From assembly GCF_005889725.1 (NCBI RefSeq), contig NZ_VCKX01000016.1:1-64000 (forward strand): 64,000 nucleotides of DNA, given 5' to 3'. Below the pieces are notes generated by a model. The model made no database searches. It worked only from the letters and a program-made list of their open reading frames with translations, and was not told where the DNA came from. Shown piece after piece: positions 12,022 to 18,695 of this stretch. A program made the translations under genes and the position numbers. This stretch comes from Nonomuraea zeae. Its GTDB lineage: Bacteria > Actinomycetota > Actinomycetes > Streptosporangiales > Streptosporangiaceae. Each line of letters opens with the position of its first letter. Positions within the stretch are counted from its first letter, which is position 1.

Positions 12022-12498
12022 TCACATGTTCTCGGCGCCGGCCCTGATGGCTTCGCGGATGCGGAAGTAGGTGCCGCAGCGGCAGATGTTGCGCAGGCCG
12101 TCGAGGTCGGCGTCGGTGATCCCGCGGCCCTCGGCGGCGGCGCGGCGGACCAGCGCCACGGCGGCCATGATCTGGCCGGGCTGGCAGTAGCCGCACTGGG
12201 CGACGTCGTGGTCGAGCCAGGCCCGCTGCATGGGGTGCAGGTCCTCGCCGACCGTGGCCGCGAGCCCCTCGATGGTCGTGACCTCGTCGGCCGGCCGCAG
12301 GTCCTCGACGGGGATCGCGCAGGGGTTGACCGCCTTGCCGTTGAGGTGGCTGGTGCACGCCTTGCAGACGTTGATGCCGCAGCCGTACTTCGGGCCGGTG
12401 ATGCCGAGGATGTCGCGCAGCACCCACAGCAGGCGCACGTCGCCGGCGACGTCGACGGTGACCTGCTCGCCGTTGACGCGGAAGGTGTACTCGGGCAC
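12022..12498 (-). CDS. oxiA: (2Fe-2S) subunit of a molybdenum hydroxylase, OxiA-like
   Basis: This 158-residue protein carries a plant-type ferredoxin cluster (CGINVCKAC plus a downstream Cys) and the second helical cluster domain (CGYCQPGQ and CRCGTYFRI), the standard small subunit of isoquinoline 1-oxidoreductase-type enzymes. It passes electrons from the molybdopterin subunit encoded just upstream (15-bp gap). In rubber-degrading Streptomyces sp. K30, lcp is followed by oxiB and oxiA, proposed to oxidise oligo-isoprene aldehydes; this order is the same, so I use that symbol. No FAD subunit is present, as in the IorAB group. Confidence 0.85.
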   Translation of the reverse strand: MPEYTFRVNGEQVTVDVAGDVRLLWVLRDILGITGPKYGCGINVCKACTSHLNGKAVNPCAIPVEDLRPADEVTTIEGLAATVGEDLHPMQRAWLDHDVAQCGYCQPGQIMAAVALVRRAAAEGRGITDADLDGLRNICRCGTYFRIREAIRAGAENM

Positions 12499-12513
12499 GC
12501 GGCTCTCCTCGGG

Positions 12514-14826
12514 TCAGCGGGCGTGGTCCAGGCCGTCGGCCGGGGATGGAGGTATGGGAGGGATGGTCGGTTTGGGGGTGAAGGAGAGCGTGCCGTGGTT
12601 GATGGGGAAGCTGGTGGGCATCGTTCCGGTCGCGCGGCCGTAGGCGCAGGCCACCGCGGCCATCGATGCGGCGACGCCCAGCTCGCCGGCGCCGCCGGGC
12701 GTCTCGGAGGTGCTGGGCATGACGATGATCTGGAGCTCGGGCGGGGTGTTCCACTGCCGGGTGTAGAAGTAGTTGTCCCAGCTCGCCTCGAGGAAATATC
12801 CGTCGCGCAGGTGCAGGCTGGAGGTCAGGGCCAGCGCGATGCCGTCCATGATGCCGCCCATCATCTGCGCTTCCAGGCCGCGCGGGTTGACGGCGAGGCC
12901 GACGTCCACGGCGAAGACGACCTTGGTGACGCGCGGGCCGCTCACGCCGTCGCGGATGGGGCGGTTGGCGGTTTCCGGCCGGCAGTCGATCTCCACCAGG
13001 GCGGCGCTGACCGACTTGTACTCGGCGTGGAACGCGATGCCCTGCGCGGTGCCGGCCGCCATCGGCCGGCCCCAGCCGCCGGCCTCGGCCACCTTCGCCA
13101 GCACCGCCCGCGAGCGGCCGTCCCGGAGGAAGTCGGTCCGGATCCGGTACGGGTCCTTGCCCATCCGCGCGCCGAGCTCATCGACGATGAGCTCGCGGGC
13201 GCAGGTGACGTCGGGCGAGTAGACGTTGCGCATGCTGCCGGTGTTGAAGCCCTTGTCCGTCTCGCTGAGCAGCTGGCTGGTGGCGCCGAAGTCGTAGGAC
13301 ACCGCCTGGCTGAGGTGGAAGAACGTCTGGGAGAAACCGGCGTCGCCCACCGGGAGCCGGGCGGCCAGGGCGGTGATGATCTCGCCCAGCCCGTGGCCGA
13401 GGTCGGTGGCGACGCTGGTGTGCCGCTGCTTGTAGCTGAGCACGGTGTCGCCGAGGTAGGCGACGCGTACCCGGGAGGTGGCCATCGGGTGGGTGCGGCC
13501 CTGGCGGGAGTCGTCGGCGCGGTGCCACATGAGCTTGACGGGCTTGCCGATCTTCTGGGACACCTCGGCGGCTTCCAGCGCGGCGTCGAAGAACAGCTTG
13601 CGGCCGAAGGAGCCCCCGCCTTCGGCGACATGCACGGTGACCCGGCCCGGCGGTAACCCGAGCTTGGCGGCGATGGCCTGCTGGGCGACGATGGGCGATT
13701 TGAGTGCCGACCAGATCTCGGCACGGTCGGTGCGCACGTCGGCGATCGCGCAGTTGGGCTCCAGCGCGCTGTTGCTGCGGAAGGCGAAGGTGAACCTGCC
13801 TTCGACGATCGGCGTCGGCGGTCTGAGCCCGATCGGCAGCTCCGCGGCCGCCAGCTCCCGCAGCACGCTCTCGTCGGACTTGCCCTCCGCGGTGCCGGGT
13901 TTCCAGGAGACCCGCAGGGCGCGTACGGCGTCGATGCACTGGCCGAAGGTCTCGGCGCGCACCGCCACCCCGGTGGAGATCACCACGGCGTCGGTGACGC
14001 CCGGCATGGCACGGACCTCGGCGAGGTTGGCCACCGAGCCGACTTTGCCGTTGATGGTCGGCGGGCGGCACACCATGGCCGGCTTCGCGTCCGGGACGTC
14101 GAGGTCCATCGTGAACTTCTTACGCCCGGTCACCGCGTCGAGCGCGTCGATCCGGTTGTGCGGTTTGCCGATGACGGTGAAGCCCGCGCGCGGCGAGAGT
14201 GTCACGGACACCTGCTGGGTCCGGGTGCCGGCGGCCTTCTCGGCGAGGGCGCCGATGCCGATGCCGCGGCCGGAGGGATCGGTGATCGTGCCGGCCCGCA
14301 GCGTCAGGTCGGTGACCGGCGAGCCGAGCTCGGCCGCCGCCGCGGAGAGCAGCCGGAGCCGGGCGACGGCGGCGGCGACCCGGATCGGGGTGTAGGTCGC
14401 GAAGGTCGTGTTCGATCCGCCGGTGAGCTGGTTGAACACCAGCTCCGGCCGGGCGTCGGCCAGGGTGACCCGTACCCGTTCCAGCGGCACGGCCATCTCC
14501 TCGGCGATCAGCATGGCCGTGGAGGTGGTGATGCCCTGTCCCACCTCGGCCCGCGGCAACGCGAACGACACCGTGCCGTCCCGGTTCACCTCGACCGAGA
14601 TCAGGCCCGAGGTCGGCAGCGCCGCCGCGGTCATCAGGTCGTTGAGATCGAGCAGGTCCGTGAGCTCCGGCGACGGCAGCCGGGCGGCGGCGGCCGCCGC
14701 CGTCGTTCCCGGCATCGGAGCGAGTTCGGCGGCGGTCACCAAGGTCGGTGCCGCCAGCACGTAACCGAGGAAGCGGCGGCGTCCGATGGCCTCGTCCACA
14801 TTCGATCCCGTCATCGTGCGGCTCAC
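12514..14826 (-). CDS. oxiB: Molybdopterin-binding subunit of an aldehyde/isoquinoline-type oxidoreductase, OxiB-like
   Basis: The 770-residue protein begins with a Tat-type signal (GRRRFLGYVLAAPTLVTAAE), then shows family motifs such as GVAVRAETFGQC, SALEPNCAIADV, VHVAEGGGSFGRKLFFDAAL, GSMRNVYSPDV and GGAGELGVAAS (the molybdenum-site Glu near the end). This matches the large subunit of IorB-like hydroxylases. The GTG start at 14826 overlaps the stop of the upstream lcp gene as GTGA, so the two are translationally coupled. With OxiA it would oxidise the aldehyde ends made by Lcp oxygenases. ATG 14814 is an alternative start. Confidence 0.85.
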   Translation of the reverse strand: MSRTMTGSNVDEAIGRRRFLGYVLAAPTLVTAAELAPMPGTTAAAAAARLPSPELTDLLDLNDLMTAAALPTSGLISVEVNRDGTVSFALPRAEVGQGITTSTAMLIAEEMAVPLERVRVTLADARPELVFNQLTGGSNTTFATYTPIRVAAAVARLRLLSAAAAELGSPVTDLTLRAGTITDPSGRGIGIGALAEKAAGTRTQQVSVTLSPRAGFTVIGKPHNRIDALDAVTGRKKFTMDLDVPDAKPAMVCRPPTINGKVGSVANLAEVRAMPGVTDAVVISTGVAVRAETFGQCIDAVRALRVSWKPGTAEGKSDESVLRELAAAELPIGLRPPTPIVEGRFTFAFRSNSALEPNCAIADVRTDRAEIWSALKSPIVAQQAIAAKLGLPPGRVTVHVAEGGGSFGRKLFFDAALEAAEVSQKIGKPVKLMWHRADDSRQGRTHPMATSRVRVAYLGDTVLSYKQRHTSVATDLGHGLGEIITALAARLPVGDAGFSQTFFHLSQAVSYDFGATSQLLSETDKGFNTGSMRNVYSPDVTCARELIVDELGARMGKDPYRIRTDFLRDGRSRAVLAKVAEAGGWGRPMAAGTAQGIAFHAEYKSVSAALVEIDCRPETANRPIRDGVSGPRVTKVVFAVDVGLAVNPRGLEAQMMGGIMDGIALALTSSLHLRDGYFLEASWDNYFYTRQWNTPPELQIIVMPSTSETPGGAGELGVAASMAAVACAYGRATGTMPTSFPINHGTLSFTPKPTIPPIPPSPADGLDHAR

Positions 14827-16043
14827 TCGGGCCGGTTGGCCGTGGGAATCTCTATCTTGGTCTCCTTGCCCTTGGTGAGGAAGAACAGGATGTACTGCCG
14901 TGCGGCCTCGTCGATGACCCAGGCGACCTCGGGCACGAGCGGCAGCGGAACGAGACCCTCTCTGAACTTAACCAGTTTCGGCCAGGCGGTGGCGATCAGC
15001 GGGTCCCACACCGGCTCGCGCCTGATGCCGTCCCAATCGGCCACCTGGTTGCCGACCAGGTATCGGGCGAGCGCGTTGCACAGGGGCCGGCTGATGCTGC
15101 CGGGGCTGGTCTGCTCGGCGAGCTGGCCCAGCAGGACGTCGGTCAGGATCACGCCCTCGGGCGTCGGCCCCATGTTCCTGGGGAGGATCTGGTCCGACTG
15201 AGCGTTGGCCGCGTCCCAGGTGGCGGGGATGTATTCGTCCCTGATGCCGAGCAGGTGCGCGGTCACCTGCCACACATGCAGGTACGCCTCGGCGTCGGCG
15301 GCGCTGATCGGGACCTTCCATTCGCGCATCTTCCGCATGGCGAAGGTCGGCAAGGTGTGCCAGGTGACCAGCATGTCCTCCTGGCTGATCGGGATCTCGC
15401 CGTTCCAGTGCGGAGATTGCTGCAGCAGGTGCCGCACCGCCGCGTGCACCAGCCGGGTCTTCACGGCCTGGACCACGCAGGTGCCGTCGGGCCGGTAGGC
15501 GTTGAGTGAGCCGACGGCGAATCCCAGGATGCTCGTCTTGGCGACCCGATCCTCCATGTCCGCGCCACCCTTGGAGTAGTAGACCGCGCGGGCCTCCTTG
15601 GGGATGGCGGTGCTCAGCATGCCGCCGCCGACGCCGTTGAGCAGGTTGAGGTAGAGCCCTCTGGACTTGTTGAACTCGGCCGCGGTGCTCAGCTTGGCCG
15701 GGTCCGCCCACGTCGGCAGCTCGCGGGCCTTGTCCATGAACGAGCGCAGATCCTCCGGCAGCCCGCCGGGTAACGGCTGGTCGTTGCGGTTCCAGTCCCA
15801 CAGCAGGCGGTTGACCTCGGGCACGGCACCGCGATCGATCAGCGAGGCGACCAGCGGGTCGGCCTCCTCGTCCCAGACCCACCGAGGATCGGCACCGGCG
15901 CCGGACCCGGCGATCGAGCCGGTCGGCGCCCAGGTCCAGGGCGTCGTGGGGCGCGCCTGGGCCGGGGACGCCATCCCCAGCGCCCCGAGGGCGCCCAGAG
16001 CCCCGCCCGAGATCAGCATCTTGCGTCTGCTCAGCTCCGCCAT
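14823..16043 (-). CDS. lcp: Latex-clearing protein (rubber oxygenase), paralogue nearer oxiB
   Basis: The 406-residue protein has a Tat signal (LSRRKMLISGGALGALGALG), so it is exported folded with its haem. Lcp-family residues are visible: AKTSILGF (the distal Lys-Thr pair), VKTRLVHAAVRHLL (Arg, the haem-ligand His, and the Arg-His pair) and MLVTWHTLP. Lcp is a b-type haem dioxygenase that cuts cis-1,4-polyisoprene endo-wise into oligo-isoprenoid keto-aldehydes. I choose ATG 16043, preceded by AAGGAG 9 nt upstream; the open frame runs further up without merit. It is the second of two lcp paralogues, 52 bp behind the first. Confidence 0.87.
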   Translation of the reverse strand: MAELSRRKMLISGGALGALGALGMASPAQARPTTPWTWAPTGSIAGSGAGADPRWVWDEEADPLVASLIDRGAVPEVNRLLWDWNRNDQPLPGGLPEDLRSFMDKARELPTWADPAKLSTAAEFNKSRGLYLNLLNGVGGGMLSTAIPKEARAVYYSKGGADMEDRVAKTSILGFAVGSLNAYRPDGTCVVQAVKTRLVHAAVRHLLQQSPHWNGEIPISQEDMLVTWHTLPTFAMRKMREWKVPISAADAEAYLHVWQVTAHLLGIRDEYIPATWDAANAQSDQILPRNMGPTPEGVILTDVLLGQLAEQTSPGSISRPLCNALARYLVGNQVADWDGIRREPVWDPLIATAWPKLVKFREGLVPLPLVPEVAWVIDEAARQYILFFLTKGKETKIEIPTANRPE

Positions 16044-16095
16044 GCTCTTGAACTCCTTTCGAGTCCCCCTGGACATGTGGCTCGTCGCCCGTGTC

Positions 16096-17319
16096 TCAGG
16101 ACGGGCGGTTCGTCTCCGGAATCTCGATCTTGATCGGCCGCGCTTCGGACAGGAAGAGCAGAGCGGCCTTGCGCAGGAACTCGTCGAAGAGCCAGTAGGC
16201 CTCCGGTGCCAGCGGGAAGGGGAGCAGACCTTCGCGGACGGCGATGAAGGGCCCCCAGGCCACCTTGAGCAGCGGGTCCCAGATCGGCTCCCTGGGGATC
16301 TTGAGCCAACCGGCGATCTGGTCGCCGAGCATGAAGCGGGTGAACGCGCCGAGTATCGGTTTGGACAGGATGCCGGCATCGACCGGGGAGCCGAGGTTGA
16401 GGAGGATGTCGGCCAGCTTGTTGCCTTCGGCCGTCGGTGCCAGCACCGGGTCCAGGACCTGCTTGGCCTGGGCGTTGGCCTCGGCCCACGACGCGGGGAT
16501 GTACTCGTCCTTGATGCCGAGCATGTGCGCGGCCAGCTGCCACGAGTGCAGGAACGCCTCGGACTCCCCGGCGGGGATGGGCACCTTCCAGGCGGTCAGC
16601 TTCTGCATGACGGTCGTGGGCAGGCTGTGCCAGGTGACCATCATGTCTCGCTGGCTGATCGGGATCTCTTCCTCGGCGACCTCCGGCCAGTGCGGGGACT
16701 GCGGCAGCAGGTGCCGCACCGCCGCGTGCACCAGCCGGGTCTTGACGCAGGTCACGATCATCTCGCCGTCGGGCTGGTAGGCGTTGCGGGTCCCGACGTC
16801 GTATCCGAGTTTGGCGGTCTTGGAGATGCGGTCCTTCATGTCCGCGCCGCCCTGCGAGTAGTAGACCGCGCGCGCCTCCTTCGGGATGACCGTGCTCATC
16901 ATGCCGCTGGCCAGCCCGTACAGGACGCCGAGGTAGAGGCCGCGCTTCTCGTTGAACCTGAACGCGGTCGCGAGCTTGCCCTGGTCGGCCCACGTGGGCA
17001 GCTGCCGGGCCCGCTCCATGAAGTCCCGCAGGTCCGCCGGCAGCCCGGCGGGCAGCGGCTGGCCGTTCTTCGTCCAGGTCCGTAACAGCTGATTGACCAT
17101 GGGCACGTCACCCCGGTCGAGCAGCGAGGCGACCAGCGGGTCGGCCTCCTCGTCCCACACCCATCGCGGGTCGGTGCCTGCCCCCGTGCCCGCCACCGAG
17201 CCTTTGGCCGACCACGTCCACGGCACCTGCGCGTACGCGGGCGCCGCGACGCTCAGCGCGCCGAGCGCGCCCAGGGCCCCGCCCGCCTTCAGGATGTTGC
17301 GCCTGCTGGGTCTGTCCAT
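16096..17319 (-). CDS. lcp: Latex-clearing protein (rubber oxygenase), promoter-proximal paralogue
   Basis: This 407-residue protein is a close paralogue of the following gene and closer to the classical Lcp of Streptomyces K30: Tat signal RPSRRNILKAGGALGALGAL, SKTAKLGYD (distal Lys-Thr), VKTRLVHAAVRHLLPQSPHW (haem His and neighbours) and MMVTWHSLP. It starts at ATG 17319 with GGAGGAGG upstream. It heads the operon lcp-lcp-oxiB-oxiA and faces the TetR regulator at 17495 across a palindrome-rich gap. The two copies diverge in their central and C-terminal parts, suggesting different product or substrate preference rather than a recent duplication. Confidence 0.9.
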   Translation of the reverse strand: MDRPSRRNILKAGGALGALGALSVAAPAYAQVPWTWSAKGSVAGTGAGTDPRWVWDEEADPLVASLLDRGDVPMVNQLLRTWTKNGQPLPAGLPADLRDFMERARQLPTWADQGKLATAFRFNEKRGLYLGVLYGLASGMMSTVIPKEARAVYYSQGGADMKDRISKTAKLGYDVGTRNAYQPDGEMIVTCVKTRLVHAAVRHLLPQSPHWPEVAEEEIPISQRDMMVTWHSLPTTVMQKLTAWKVPIPAGESEAFLHSWQLAAHMLGIKDEYIPASWAEANAQAKQVLDPVLAPTAEGNKLADILLNLGSPVDAGILSKPILGAFTRFMLGDQIAGWLKIPREPIWDPLLKVAWGPFIAVREGLLPFPLAPEAYWLFDEFLRKAALLFLSEARPIKIEIPETNRPS

Positions 17320-17360
17320 GCCTTCGTTCCTCCTCCTTGCCGGAGCCTCCTGGTCGGAGC

Positions 17361-17408
17361 GAAGCACTGGTTGATACGATGAAACACGTAGTGCTTCCGT
17401 GTATCATC
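17361..17408. promoter_or_regulatory. Interleaved inverted repeats between the lcp operon and its TetR gene
   Basis: GATGAAACACG (17378-17388) and CGTGTATCATC (17398-17408) form an inverted repeat with one mismatch. GAAGCAC (17361-17367) and GTGCTTC (17391-17397) form a second, perfect one overlapping it. Both lie in the divergent gap, the expected place for a TetR-family LcpR-type operator controlling both directions. Confidence 0.55.
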
Positions 17409-17494
17409 ATCATGACAGCACACTGTGAGGGGGATCACAAGACCGCATCGGCGGCTGTTGGGGAATGAGGCACAATCAACTCCAGGAGGTGATC

Positions 17495-18166
17495 GTGGAA
17501 TCTGCGCTGTCCGGGCTCATGACGCCGTCGGACTCGGAGTCGTTGCTGGAGCGCGCATACCTTGATGCCGTCGAAAGGGTCGACGACACCGACGAGCTCC
17601 GCGCCCGCATACTCGACGCCGCCTACGAGCAGTTCTGCCGGATGGGGATCAGGCGGTCCACCATGGAGGACGTCGCCCGGCGGGCCAAGGTCTCGCGGAT
17701 CACGGTCTACCGGCGCTTCGCCACGAAGGACGCGCTGGTCGAACACGTCGTACGCCGAGAGTTCCGCCGATACTTCGACCGGTTCCTCATCGACATCGAG
17801 CAGGCCGGCACCGCCGCCGACCGCGTGGTGCTGGGCTTCGTCAGCTCGTTACGCGCCATCCGGAACAACCCGCTGATCGGCGGCCTGATCGCCGCGGAGC
17901 CGGACCTGCTCGTGCCCTCCATGATCGCCGACGGGGGCCAGACCCTCGCCACGGTCCGCCAGTTCGTCGCCGGCCAGCTCCGCCACGAGCAGCGCGCGGG
18001 CCACGTCTCCGGCGACCTGAACACCGAGCTCGTGGCCGAGATGATGGTCCGGGTCTCCGCCTCCTTCCTGGCGACCCCCAGTCAGGTCATCGACCTCGAC
18101 GACGACGACCAGCTGGCCGCGGTGGCCCGCCAGTTCCTGGTGCCCATGCTGCGACCGCCCAGCTGA
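17495..18166 (+). CDS. TetR-family regulator of the lcp operon (LcpR-like)
   Basis: This 223-residue protein shows the TetR helix-turn-helix STMEDVARRAKVSRITVYRR and a helical ligand domain (VLGFVSSLRAIRNNPLIGGL). I start at GTG 17495, because AGGAGG lies 5 nt upstream; ATG 17465 in the same frame has no ribosome site. A TetR gene divergent from lcp is the arrangement known for LcpR in rubber-degrading actinobacteria. It probably represses the operon until an isoprenoid cleavage product binds. The ligand is inferred from context only. Confidence 0.85.
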   Translation: MESALSGLMTPSDSESLLERAYLDAVERVDDTDELRARILDAAYEQFCRMGIRRSTMEDVARRAKVSRITVYRRFATKDALVEHVVRREFRRYFDRFLIDIEQAGTAADRVVLGFVSSLRAIRNNPLIGGLIAAEPDLLVPSMIADGGQTLATVRQFVAGQLRHEQRAGHVSGDLNTELVAEMMVRVSASFLATPSQVIDLDDDDQLAAVARQFLVPMLRPPS

Positions 18167-18224
18167 CCGTTGACCACCTGCGTGGCATTGACGTCAAGCG
18201 CGGTTGGGGTTGCAGGCTGGTGTT

Positions 18225-18695
18225 GTGATCTTTACTGATGCCGAGCTCGGCTACCTGTCGGAGCACCCGCTGGGGCGCCTGGCCACGATCGGGCCCGGCG
18301 GAGCACCGCACGTCCAGCCCGTGGTCGTCTGGGTGAACGCCGGCACCGGGACCATCGACGTCGGCGGCCCGGAACTGGCCAGGAGCCAGAAGTTCCGCAA
18401 CGCCCGAGCCGACCCCCGGGTCTCCCTGGTGGTGGACGATCAGGCCGAAACGCCCAATTCGATCGGCCAGACCGGCCGGGGCATCGAGATCCGCGGCTCG
18501 GTCGAGATCGTGTCTCTCGACCCGCCACTCCACCCCGCGTTCGACTCGGAGACCCTGCGCATCCATCCGCACCGGATCGTCGCCTGGAACATCGACGCAC
18601 CCATCCCGGACGCGTCCGGCCGTCCAGCGCACCTGCACGGCTACAACTCCCGCGACATATCCCGCCAGCCCCTTCTTGACGGGGACCCCGCCTGA
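18225..18695 (+). CDS. PPOX-class F420-dependent protein (split-barrel flavin/F420 family)
   Basis: The 156-residue protein has the split-barrel pattern of F420-dependent pyridoxamine-oxidase-like enzymes: LGRLATIGPGGAPHVQPVVV, KFRNARADPRVSLVVDD, GIEIRGSVE, and a C-terminal HPHRIVAWNID. I start at GTG 18225 (VIFTDAELGYL), where relatives begin; TTG 18204 would add seven residues. A perfect palindrome TTGACGTCAA lies at 18188-18197, 28 bp before the start. The substrate is unknown. A fragment of a related gene lies at 41646-41771. Confidence 0.82.
   Translation: MIFTDAELGYLSEHPLGRLATIGPGGAPHVQPVVVWVNAGTGTIDVGGPELARSQKFRNARADPRVSLVVDDQAETPNSIGQTGRGIEIRGSVEIVSLDPPLHPAFDSETLRIHPHRIVAWNIDAPIPDASGRPAHLHGYNSRDISRQPLLDGDPA

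Follow-up and report, generated by a model that had tools for sequence, protein, structure and literature searches.

Why does a bacterium keep two neighbouring genes for rubber oxygenases, and do the two enzymes share one task or divide it? This question is raised by a locus of the soil actinomycete Nonomuraea zeae (Streptosporangiaceae) that lies within positions 1 to 64,000 of contig NZ_VCKX01000016.1 (assembly GCF_005889725.1); this 64,000-nucleotide stretch is referred to as the window below. Here, two lcp genes are followed by oxiB and oxiA and face a divergently oriented gene, lcpR, that encodes a TetR/AcrR-family regulator. The locus is predicted to be a rubber-cleavage cassette under LcpR control, a reading to which we give a probability of roughly 0.85. 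Why many rubber degraders retain two or three Lcps is unsettled in the literature covered.

Genes and products of the cassette

An earlier note on this DNA had described two lcp genes with oxiB and oxiA in the interval 12022-18166, which is borne out by the open reading frames, the Pfam families and end-to-end matches to the Lcp of Streptomyces sp. K30. Its description of the lcp paralogues as fused to oxiB-oxiA was wrong, as the frames are separate, and it passed over both lcpR, which lies inside the interval that it covered, and the palindrome between lcpR and lcp1. The translations of all five genes have one terminal stop each. Transcription on the minus strand runs in the order lcp1-lcp2-oxiB-oxiA, with lcpR in the opposite direction. 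The coupling of lcp2 to oxiB proposed in the note is present in form of the bases GTGA, in which the stop codon of lcp2 overlaps the GTG start codon of oxiB. The four genes are contiguous, with this overlap and a single operator-like site; co-transcription is shown in Actinoplanes sp. OR16 only.

Each Lcp aligns over its whole length with the K30 rubber oxygenase (5o1l_A), a match far above chance (E 9e-160 for Lcp1 and 2.6e-164 for Lcp2), with aligned identities of 57.0% and 60.4%, respectively, and of 60.5% to each other, and both contain the PF09995/DUF2236 domain. Neither has a match in NCBIfam. The HAAVRH, Lys-Thr and TWH motifs named in the note are all present in both proteins, which, in K30 numbering, keep D56, D60, E148, R164, K167, T168, R195, H198, R202, H203 and T230. 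Among these are residues with described roles in K30 Lcp, namely the proximal haem His198, Arg164, Thr168, the distal Lys167 and Glu148 at the channel base (PMC5522427). The signals for twin-arginine translocation (Tat) ascribed to both proteins are likewise seen, as the motifs SRRNILK in one Lcp and SRRKMLI in the other, while PF10518 is above its cut-off for Lcp1 alone and Lcp2 has no Pfam Tat match at E 0.001. By sequence, Lcp1 and Lcp2 are members of the Lcp family, predicted to cleave polyisoprene.

The best solved matches of OxiB and OxiA are 8gy3_C ('Large subunit of aldehyde dehydrogenase') and 8gy3_B, respectively. We take 8gy3 to be a membrane-bound enzyme of an acetic acid bacterium with a cytochrome subunit, for which a literature search brought no confirmation. 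In OxiB, a twin-arginine pair and the motif GGAGEL (Glu715) are invariant over 66 aligned sequences, the glutamate of this motif presumably being the active-site Glu of the molybdenum hydroxylase family, and OxiA holds eight cysteines that are invariant over 67 sequences. The pair is of the OxiAB type, with a molybdenum-binding large subunit that carries the Glu and a small subunit with two [2Fe-2S] motifs.

Table 1. Features of the cassette, in window coordinates.
Feature	Position	Strand	Length and start	Assignment
lcp1	16096-17319	-	407 amino acids, ATG 17319	PF09995 and PF10518; predicted haem rubber oxygenase, Tat signal, Lcp1 (B) type
lcp2	14823-16043	-	406 amino acids, ATG 16043	PF09995; predicted haem rubber oxygenase, Tat-like signal, Lcp2 (A) type
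oxiB	12514-14826	-	770 amino acids, GTG 14826	MoCoBD_1/2; predicted molybdopterin-binding subunit of an aldehyde-oxidising molybdenum hydroxylase; twin-arginine stretch RRRFLGYVLAAPTL
oxiA	12022-12498	-	158 amino acids, GTG 12498	Fer2/Fer2_2; predicted [2Fe-2S] subunit, partner of OxiB
lcpR	17465-18166	+	233 amino acids	TetR/AcrR-family regulator, divergent from lcp1; TetR_N PF00440, E 2e-13
Palindrome GATACACGGAAGCACTACGTGTTTCATCGTATC	17373-17405	-	33 bp, imperfect	Between lcpR and lcp1; probable LcpR operator (matrix score)
lcp2 segment, K30 residues 131-174	15516-15647	-		Glu148, Arg164, Lys167 and Thr168; 7 of 11 A-versus-B positions

The palindrome and its predicted regulator

For comparison, relatives were collected by a scan with Lcp2 that found 177 stretches, 153 of them with a relative; 80 were kept and yielded 76 loci. 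As these were picked by likeness to Lcp2, Lcp2-type genes are over-represented in them by design. The nearest relatives come mostly from Nonomuraea. An LcpR homologue was detected in 70 of the 76 loci. The window site served for a first consensus of the palindrome, while the matrix used below was derived from 67 further loci, with the window excluded. By this matrix, the window site scores 53.2 bits, compared to 8.6 bits for the best of 50 mononucleotide-shuffled windows. At a threshold of at least 14 bits, a site is found in 75 of the 76 loci, and for 93 of the 94 merged hits an lcp gene follows within 450 bp, counts that are partly circular because the matrix stems from the same loci and that include shifted reads of one and the same palindrome among the 94 hits.

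Beyond these loci, the matrix selects, upstream of lcp2 on plasmid p174 of Gordonia VH2, the very palindrome that has been quoted for LcpR-VH2 (PMC7413915), with 24.4 bits, the next best hit reaching 2.9. In the 13.6-Mb draft genome of N. zeae, the pattern occurs at one place with up to three mismatches; a wider LcpR regulon was considered and dropped, as no other site was found in this genome at that tolerance. Ten cassette genomes contain 15 places with up to two mismatches; lcp genes account for 13, and the cassette sites in these genomes are partly identical to those in the matrix. The remaining two places are near-identical operator-like sites with two mismatches, away from lcp genes, one in each of two Dactylosporangium genomes (G059:C90:17646 and G060:C43:38264). 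Among the 16 genus-mates without an Lcp at 50% identity, 13 were searched and none has the pattern. Where oxiB-oxiA lie between an Lcp2-type (A) and an Lcp1-type (B) gene (L019, L026, L029, L034 and L049), a site precedes both units in five of five cases, and no such site is seen at the Lcp3-type loci L104-L106, with best matrix scores below 0.

Several observations do not fit this picture. L073 has no operator-like site by the matrix at 14 bits or more, and none was detected by the matrix at the B gene of L062, which lies far off in the opposite orientation. Moreover, the OR16 authors propose a different palindrome upstream of lcp1 (PMC7413915), which failed to fit the matrix-type site in a half-site test; the palindrome of VH2 lcp1, tried in the same way, did not fit either. 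A TetR gene adjoins lcp, and the palindrome between them, which resembles the site described for LcpR-VH2 at lcp2, is probably the LcpR operator. A second operator-like site lies between the two lcp genes in L016 and L023 (at 7939), L018 (at 7935) and L024 (at 7937), which represent two Dactylosporangium, one Planomonospora and one Streptosporangium. This suggests a separate control of the Lcp2-OxiAB part in these strains. With this matrix, regulated lcp promoters can also be located in unannotated DNA.

Two kinds of Lcp and what they may do

A quick tree of 160 Lcps falls into an A and a B part, a split with an SH-like approximate likelihood ratio test (SH-aLRT) value of 100. The A type comprises 79 rows with window Lcp2, including one MpaB-like outlier of 29% identity (L059_Lcpa), and the B type 81 rows with window Lcp1 and K30 Lcp. 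If this outlier is dropped, 72 of the 76 loci contain one A and one B copy according to this split and four contain B only, one of which (L050) carries a partial Lcp2 match that was left unmodelled by the gene caller; two copies of one kind are found in none. A careful tree, for which the 163 rows were reduced to 89 on the basis of identity, supports the A type (100/100), a K30 type (100/99) and an Lcp1 type (98/85). It also reveals that the B copy of L036 is Lcp3-like and that those of L070 and L081 fall between the groups.

Pair composition was held through at least seven changes of gene order, as counted on a quick tree of 74 A rows (73 labelled). The window shares the order B-A-oxiB-oxiA with its relatives among the Streptosporangiaceae and Actinoplanes and with several Pseudonocardiaceae. 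In Streptomyces and some Saccharopolyspora, A-B precedes oxiB-oxiA, and in Frankia, Pseudofrankia and some other Pseudonocardiaceae, B comes after A-oxiB-oxiA. It is the A type that is closely coupled to oxiB, since the median gap between tblastn matches is 6 bp from A to oxiB (n=37), compared to 204 bp from B to oxiB (n=29, two of these from loci tallied as B only). Taken together, Lcp2 is a member of one clade and stands beside a copy of non-Lcp2 type in nearly all of the 76 loci despite about seven reorderings. According to the tree, the literature names 'lcp1' and 'lcp2' follow position or discovery rather than descent. In the tree, K30 Lcp lies nearest to the Lcps of L065, L067 and L068, which are encoded by the second genes of A-B-oxiB-oxiA cassettes. 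Strain K30 itself was described with one lcp, and its genome is unavailable (PMC9108482); it may harbour an unseen A-type lcp upstream of the known one.

Which residues set the two kinds apart was assessed with 74 A, 46 Lcp1-type and 30 K30-type rows, leaving out four lone A-like copies (L086-L089, see below), the MpaB-like outlier and the outlying B rows L036, L070, L073, L081 and L091. A column was called diagnostic when it was fixed to 85% or more within every group, the same in both B groups and different in A. Eleven columns were found, seven of which lie in K30 residues 131-174, around the catalytic Glu148 and Lys167-Thr168 (the lcp2 coordinates of this segment in Table 1 derive from a +2 residue offset in the alignment of Lcp2 with 5o1l). 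Two Lcp3 rows have the B state at 134, 138, 173, 174, 238 and 326, and therefore the change happened in A. This suggests that the second cutter, Lcp2, has altered active-site surroundings. The lone A-like copies display a third distal-pocket pattern (V131, T or A134, N169). The literature searched, which lacks most subscription journals, yielded no description of the two lineages A and B or of the diagnostic residues.

When N. zeae and 58 relatives were searched (59 genomes in all, including 35 genus-mates), presence turned out to be patchy in the genus, as 7 of the 35 genus-mates carry the tandem pair, 12 a lone copy and 16 none at 50% identity or above. The lone copies are 67-70% identical to Lcp2 in eleven genomes, one of which has the tandem pair elsewhere, and of Lcp1 type in one; a further genome retains a broken Lcp2-like piece. 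The comparison below returns to the eleven Lcp2-like copies. Four of these eleven lone copies were fetched (L086-L089): all fall among the A rows on a long stem and adjoin lcpR, and no oxiB or oxiA match was found in the fetched stretches. The N. zeae draft (756 contigs) has six PF09995 matches, two of which are the window Lcps. A third lcp was sought in it, yet the PF09995 match on contig C351 is a remote relative with 25% identity, and no other candidate was found. Three strong PF09995 (MpaB-family) matches on contigs C250, C8 and C734 (G000) lie beyond the reach of the Lcp2 search.

From these data, the following course of events can be proposed. LcpR would sit on the one palindrome and control the lcp1-lcp2-oxiB-oxiA transcript, most likely by repressing it until rubber is present. 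Lcp1 and Lcp2 would be exported by Tat in folded form with their haem and cut the polymer extracellularly into oligo-isoprenoids with aldehyde and ketone ends, as shown for K30-type enzymes. OxiB, exported via its own Tat signal, would carry OxiA along as a hitchhiker, and outside the cytoplasm, OxiAB would then turn the terminal aldehydes into acids and pass the electrons to an acceptor.

Do the two Lcps differ in function? Residues around the distal haem pocket appear altered in the Lcp2 clade and the pair has been retained through gene-order changes, and therefore a difference between the enzymes in substrate state or in product length is more probable than a role as spare copies; such a specialisation is plausible, with odds slightly better than even. 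The contrary explanation, in which both are redundant, the second copy raises dosage and the divergence reflects drift after an old duplication, is given a smaller though substantial share. It draws on the retention of every tested catalytic residue in both Lcps, on the existence of lone copies of either kind, so that the pair is not obligatory, and on OR16, in which Lcp1 and Lcp2 are co-induced and each takes up oxygen on natural rubber latex, Lcp2 being the weaker on the same latex (PMC7413915). Two findings speak against redundancy: by the quick-tree split, none of the 76 loci has two copies of one kind, most having one A and one B despite reordering, and the A-specific changes gather around the haem pocket. 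The force of the latter argument is itself reduced by several points. The hypergeometric value for seven of eleven positions (9e-4, with 141 eligible columns, 27 of them within the segment) is a guide value, because the segment was picked once the positions were known, and the A-specific changes fall largely on a single branch. In addition, the Lcp3 rows have the A state at 396 (both) and 392 (one row) and neither state at 131 and 169. When the careful tree is rooted with Lcp3, the K30 type groups with A (98/88), which would break B up as a clade; how A, the Lcp1 type and the K30 type branch under this root is unsure because the outgroup branches are long, as the tree program warned. The division of labour envisaged in the earlier note is only suggested, by the joint retention of the two copies and the changes close to the haem that are specific to the clade, while the action of both OR16 enzymes on natural rubber latex speaks against it. 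More tentatively, the Lcp2 type, its distal haem pocket remodelled, might constitute a functionally distinct class of rubber oxygenase in a two-enzyme cassette comparable to RoxA plus RoxB of Gram-negative rubber degraders, with a different cut that feeds the exported OxiAB. In that event, Lcp2, to which oxiB is translationally coupled, may trim oligo-isoprenoids or act on another polymer state. As eleven positions separate the two kinds, a division of labour is testable with few proteins.

The site of aldehyde oxidation is a further point of debate. Of 66 OxiB frames, 65 encode a twin-arginine motif, with the exception (L024) being a frame that continues from lcp2, and none of 66 OxiA has an RR within its first 30 residues. 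Across the 66 aligned OxiB (window included, L024 left out), the residues before the invariant RR are variable and the hydrophobic stretch FLGYVLAAPTL is 85-100% conserved per position. This argues for export of OxiB with OxiA as a hitchhiker and for oxidation of the aldehydes outside the cytoplasm, which we consider likely, although the motif alone is no proof of export. Conversely, OxiAB could act in the cytoplasm after aldehyde uptake, the twin-arginine stretch being a non-working export signal. For this view speak the dash under Tat for OxiB in a table on Dactylosporangium sp. AC04546 (PMC11169899), a Pfam TAT_signal match that falls short of the E 0.001 threshold, and a paper that has oligomers taken up before oxidation by OxiAB, though it also calls OxiAB secreted (PMC8235351); given the conservation pattern just described, it seems rather unlikely. 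The OxiB signal bears on a disagreement in the literature. As for the substrate, PF09995 is a broad family and the four other matches in the own genome are not close to Lcp, so one might think of oxygenases of other function that act on another isoprenoid or an unsaturated soil lipid. This is very improbable in view of the end-to-end match to K30 Lcp with all tested residues shared with it, the coupling to oxiB-oxiA and the reported activity on rubber of AC04546 relatives at 87-88% identity (PMC11169899).

Neighbouring genes and described rubber degraders

Directly after lcpR and on the same strand, the window encodes a PPOX-type F420-dependent oxidoreductase (18204-18695) that has no match in any of the 76 loci. 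It was considered as a further pathway member together with four other neighbours and, like them, rejected: matches were found in 0 of 76 loci for the small basic protein and the BrkB-like protein, in one for the Ser/Thr kinase and in four for the SpoIIE-type sensor. This census used the window's own neighbours as the only queries.

Among described systems, Actinoplanes sp. OR16 comes closest, with lcp1-lcp2-oxiB-oxiA and a divergent TetR gene, ACTI_59620. RT-PCR (reverse transcription PCR) products over all three junctions, induction by rubber, electrophoretic mobility shift assays and oxygen uptake by all three purified Lcps have been reported for this strain (PMC7413915). In its text, the paper puts the activity of Lcp1 at about 7 times that of Lcp2; its values of 4.02 and 1.17 U/mg amount to a factor of 3.4. 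Compared by description, OR16 shares with the window gene content, order and orientation, Tat-type Lcps and the divergent TetR gene. It differs by a proposed palindrome unlike that of the window and by a third lcp elsewhere with its own double-TetR regulator, none having been found in the draft genome of N. zeae; the same lack of a distant third lcp in this draft sets N. zeae apart from the other three-lcp organisms, CFMR 7 and AC04546.

For Dactylosporangium sp. AC04546, lcp3-lcp2-oxiB-oxiA and activity of all three Lcps have been reported (PMC11169899). Its cassette (L023) has the gene order of the window, with 87.6% identity of the upstream Lcp to Lcp1 and 87.0% of the downstream Lcp to Lcp2, but has the second operator-like site between its lcp genes and a distant third lcp. 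An identity of 60.8% is paired with Lcp1-Lcp3 in the 2024 paper on this strain (PMC11169899) and with Lcp2-Lcp3 in that of 2021 (PMC8538451); the cross-identities between its cassette pair and the window pair (60.8% and 61.6%) fit the 2021 pairing better. Microtetraspora sp. AC03309 carries lcp1-lcp2-oxiB-oxiA and two lcps in the strain (PMC8538451). By description, it agrees with the window in the tandem lcps with oxiB-oxiA and in having two lcps only, and differs in its neighbours, which are genes for a coenzyme A (CoA) ligase and a dehydrogenase. The lcp-oxiB-oxiA locus of Streptomyces sp. K30 has the same Lcp fold, catalytic residues and OxiAB type, but a single reported lcp, of B type. 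Such lcp operons have been compared before (PMC9108482). The cassette layout is hence already published, and the window contributes a further member of this published kind.

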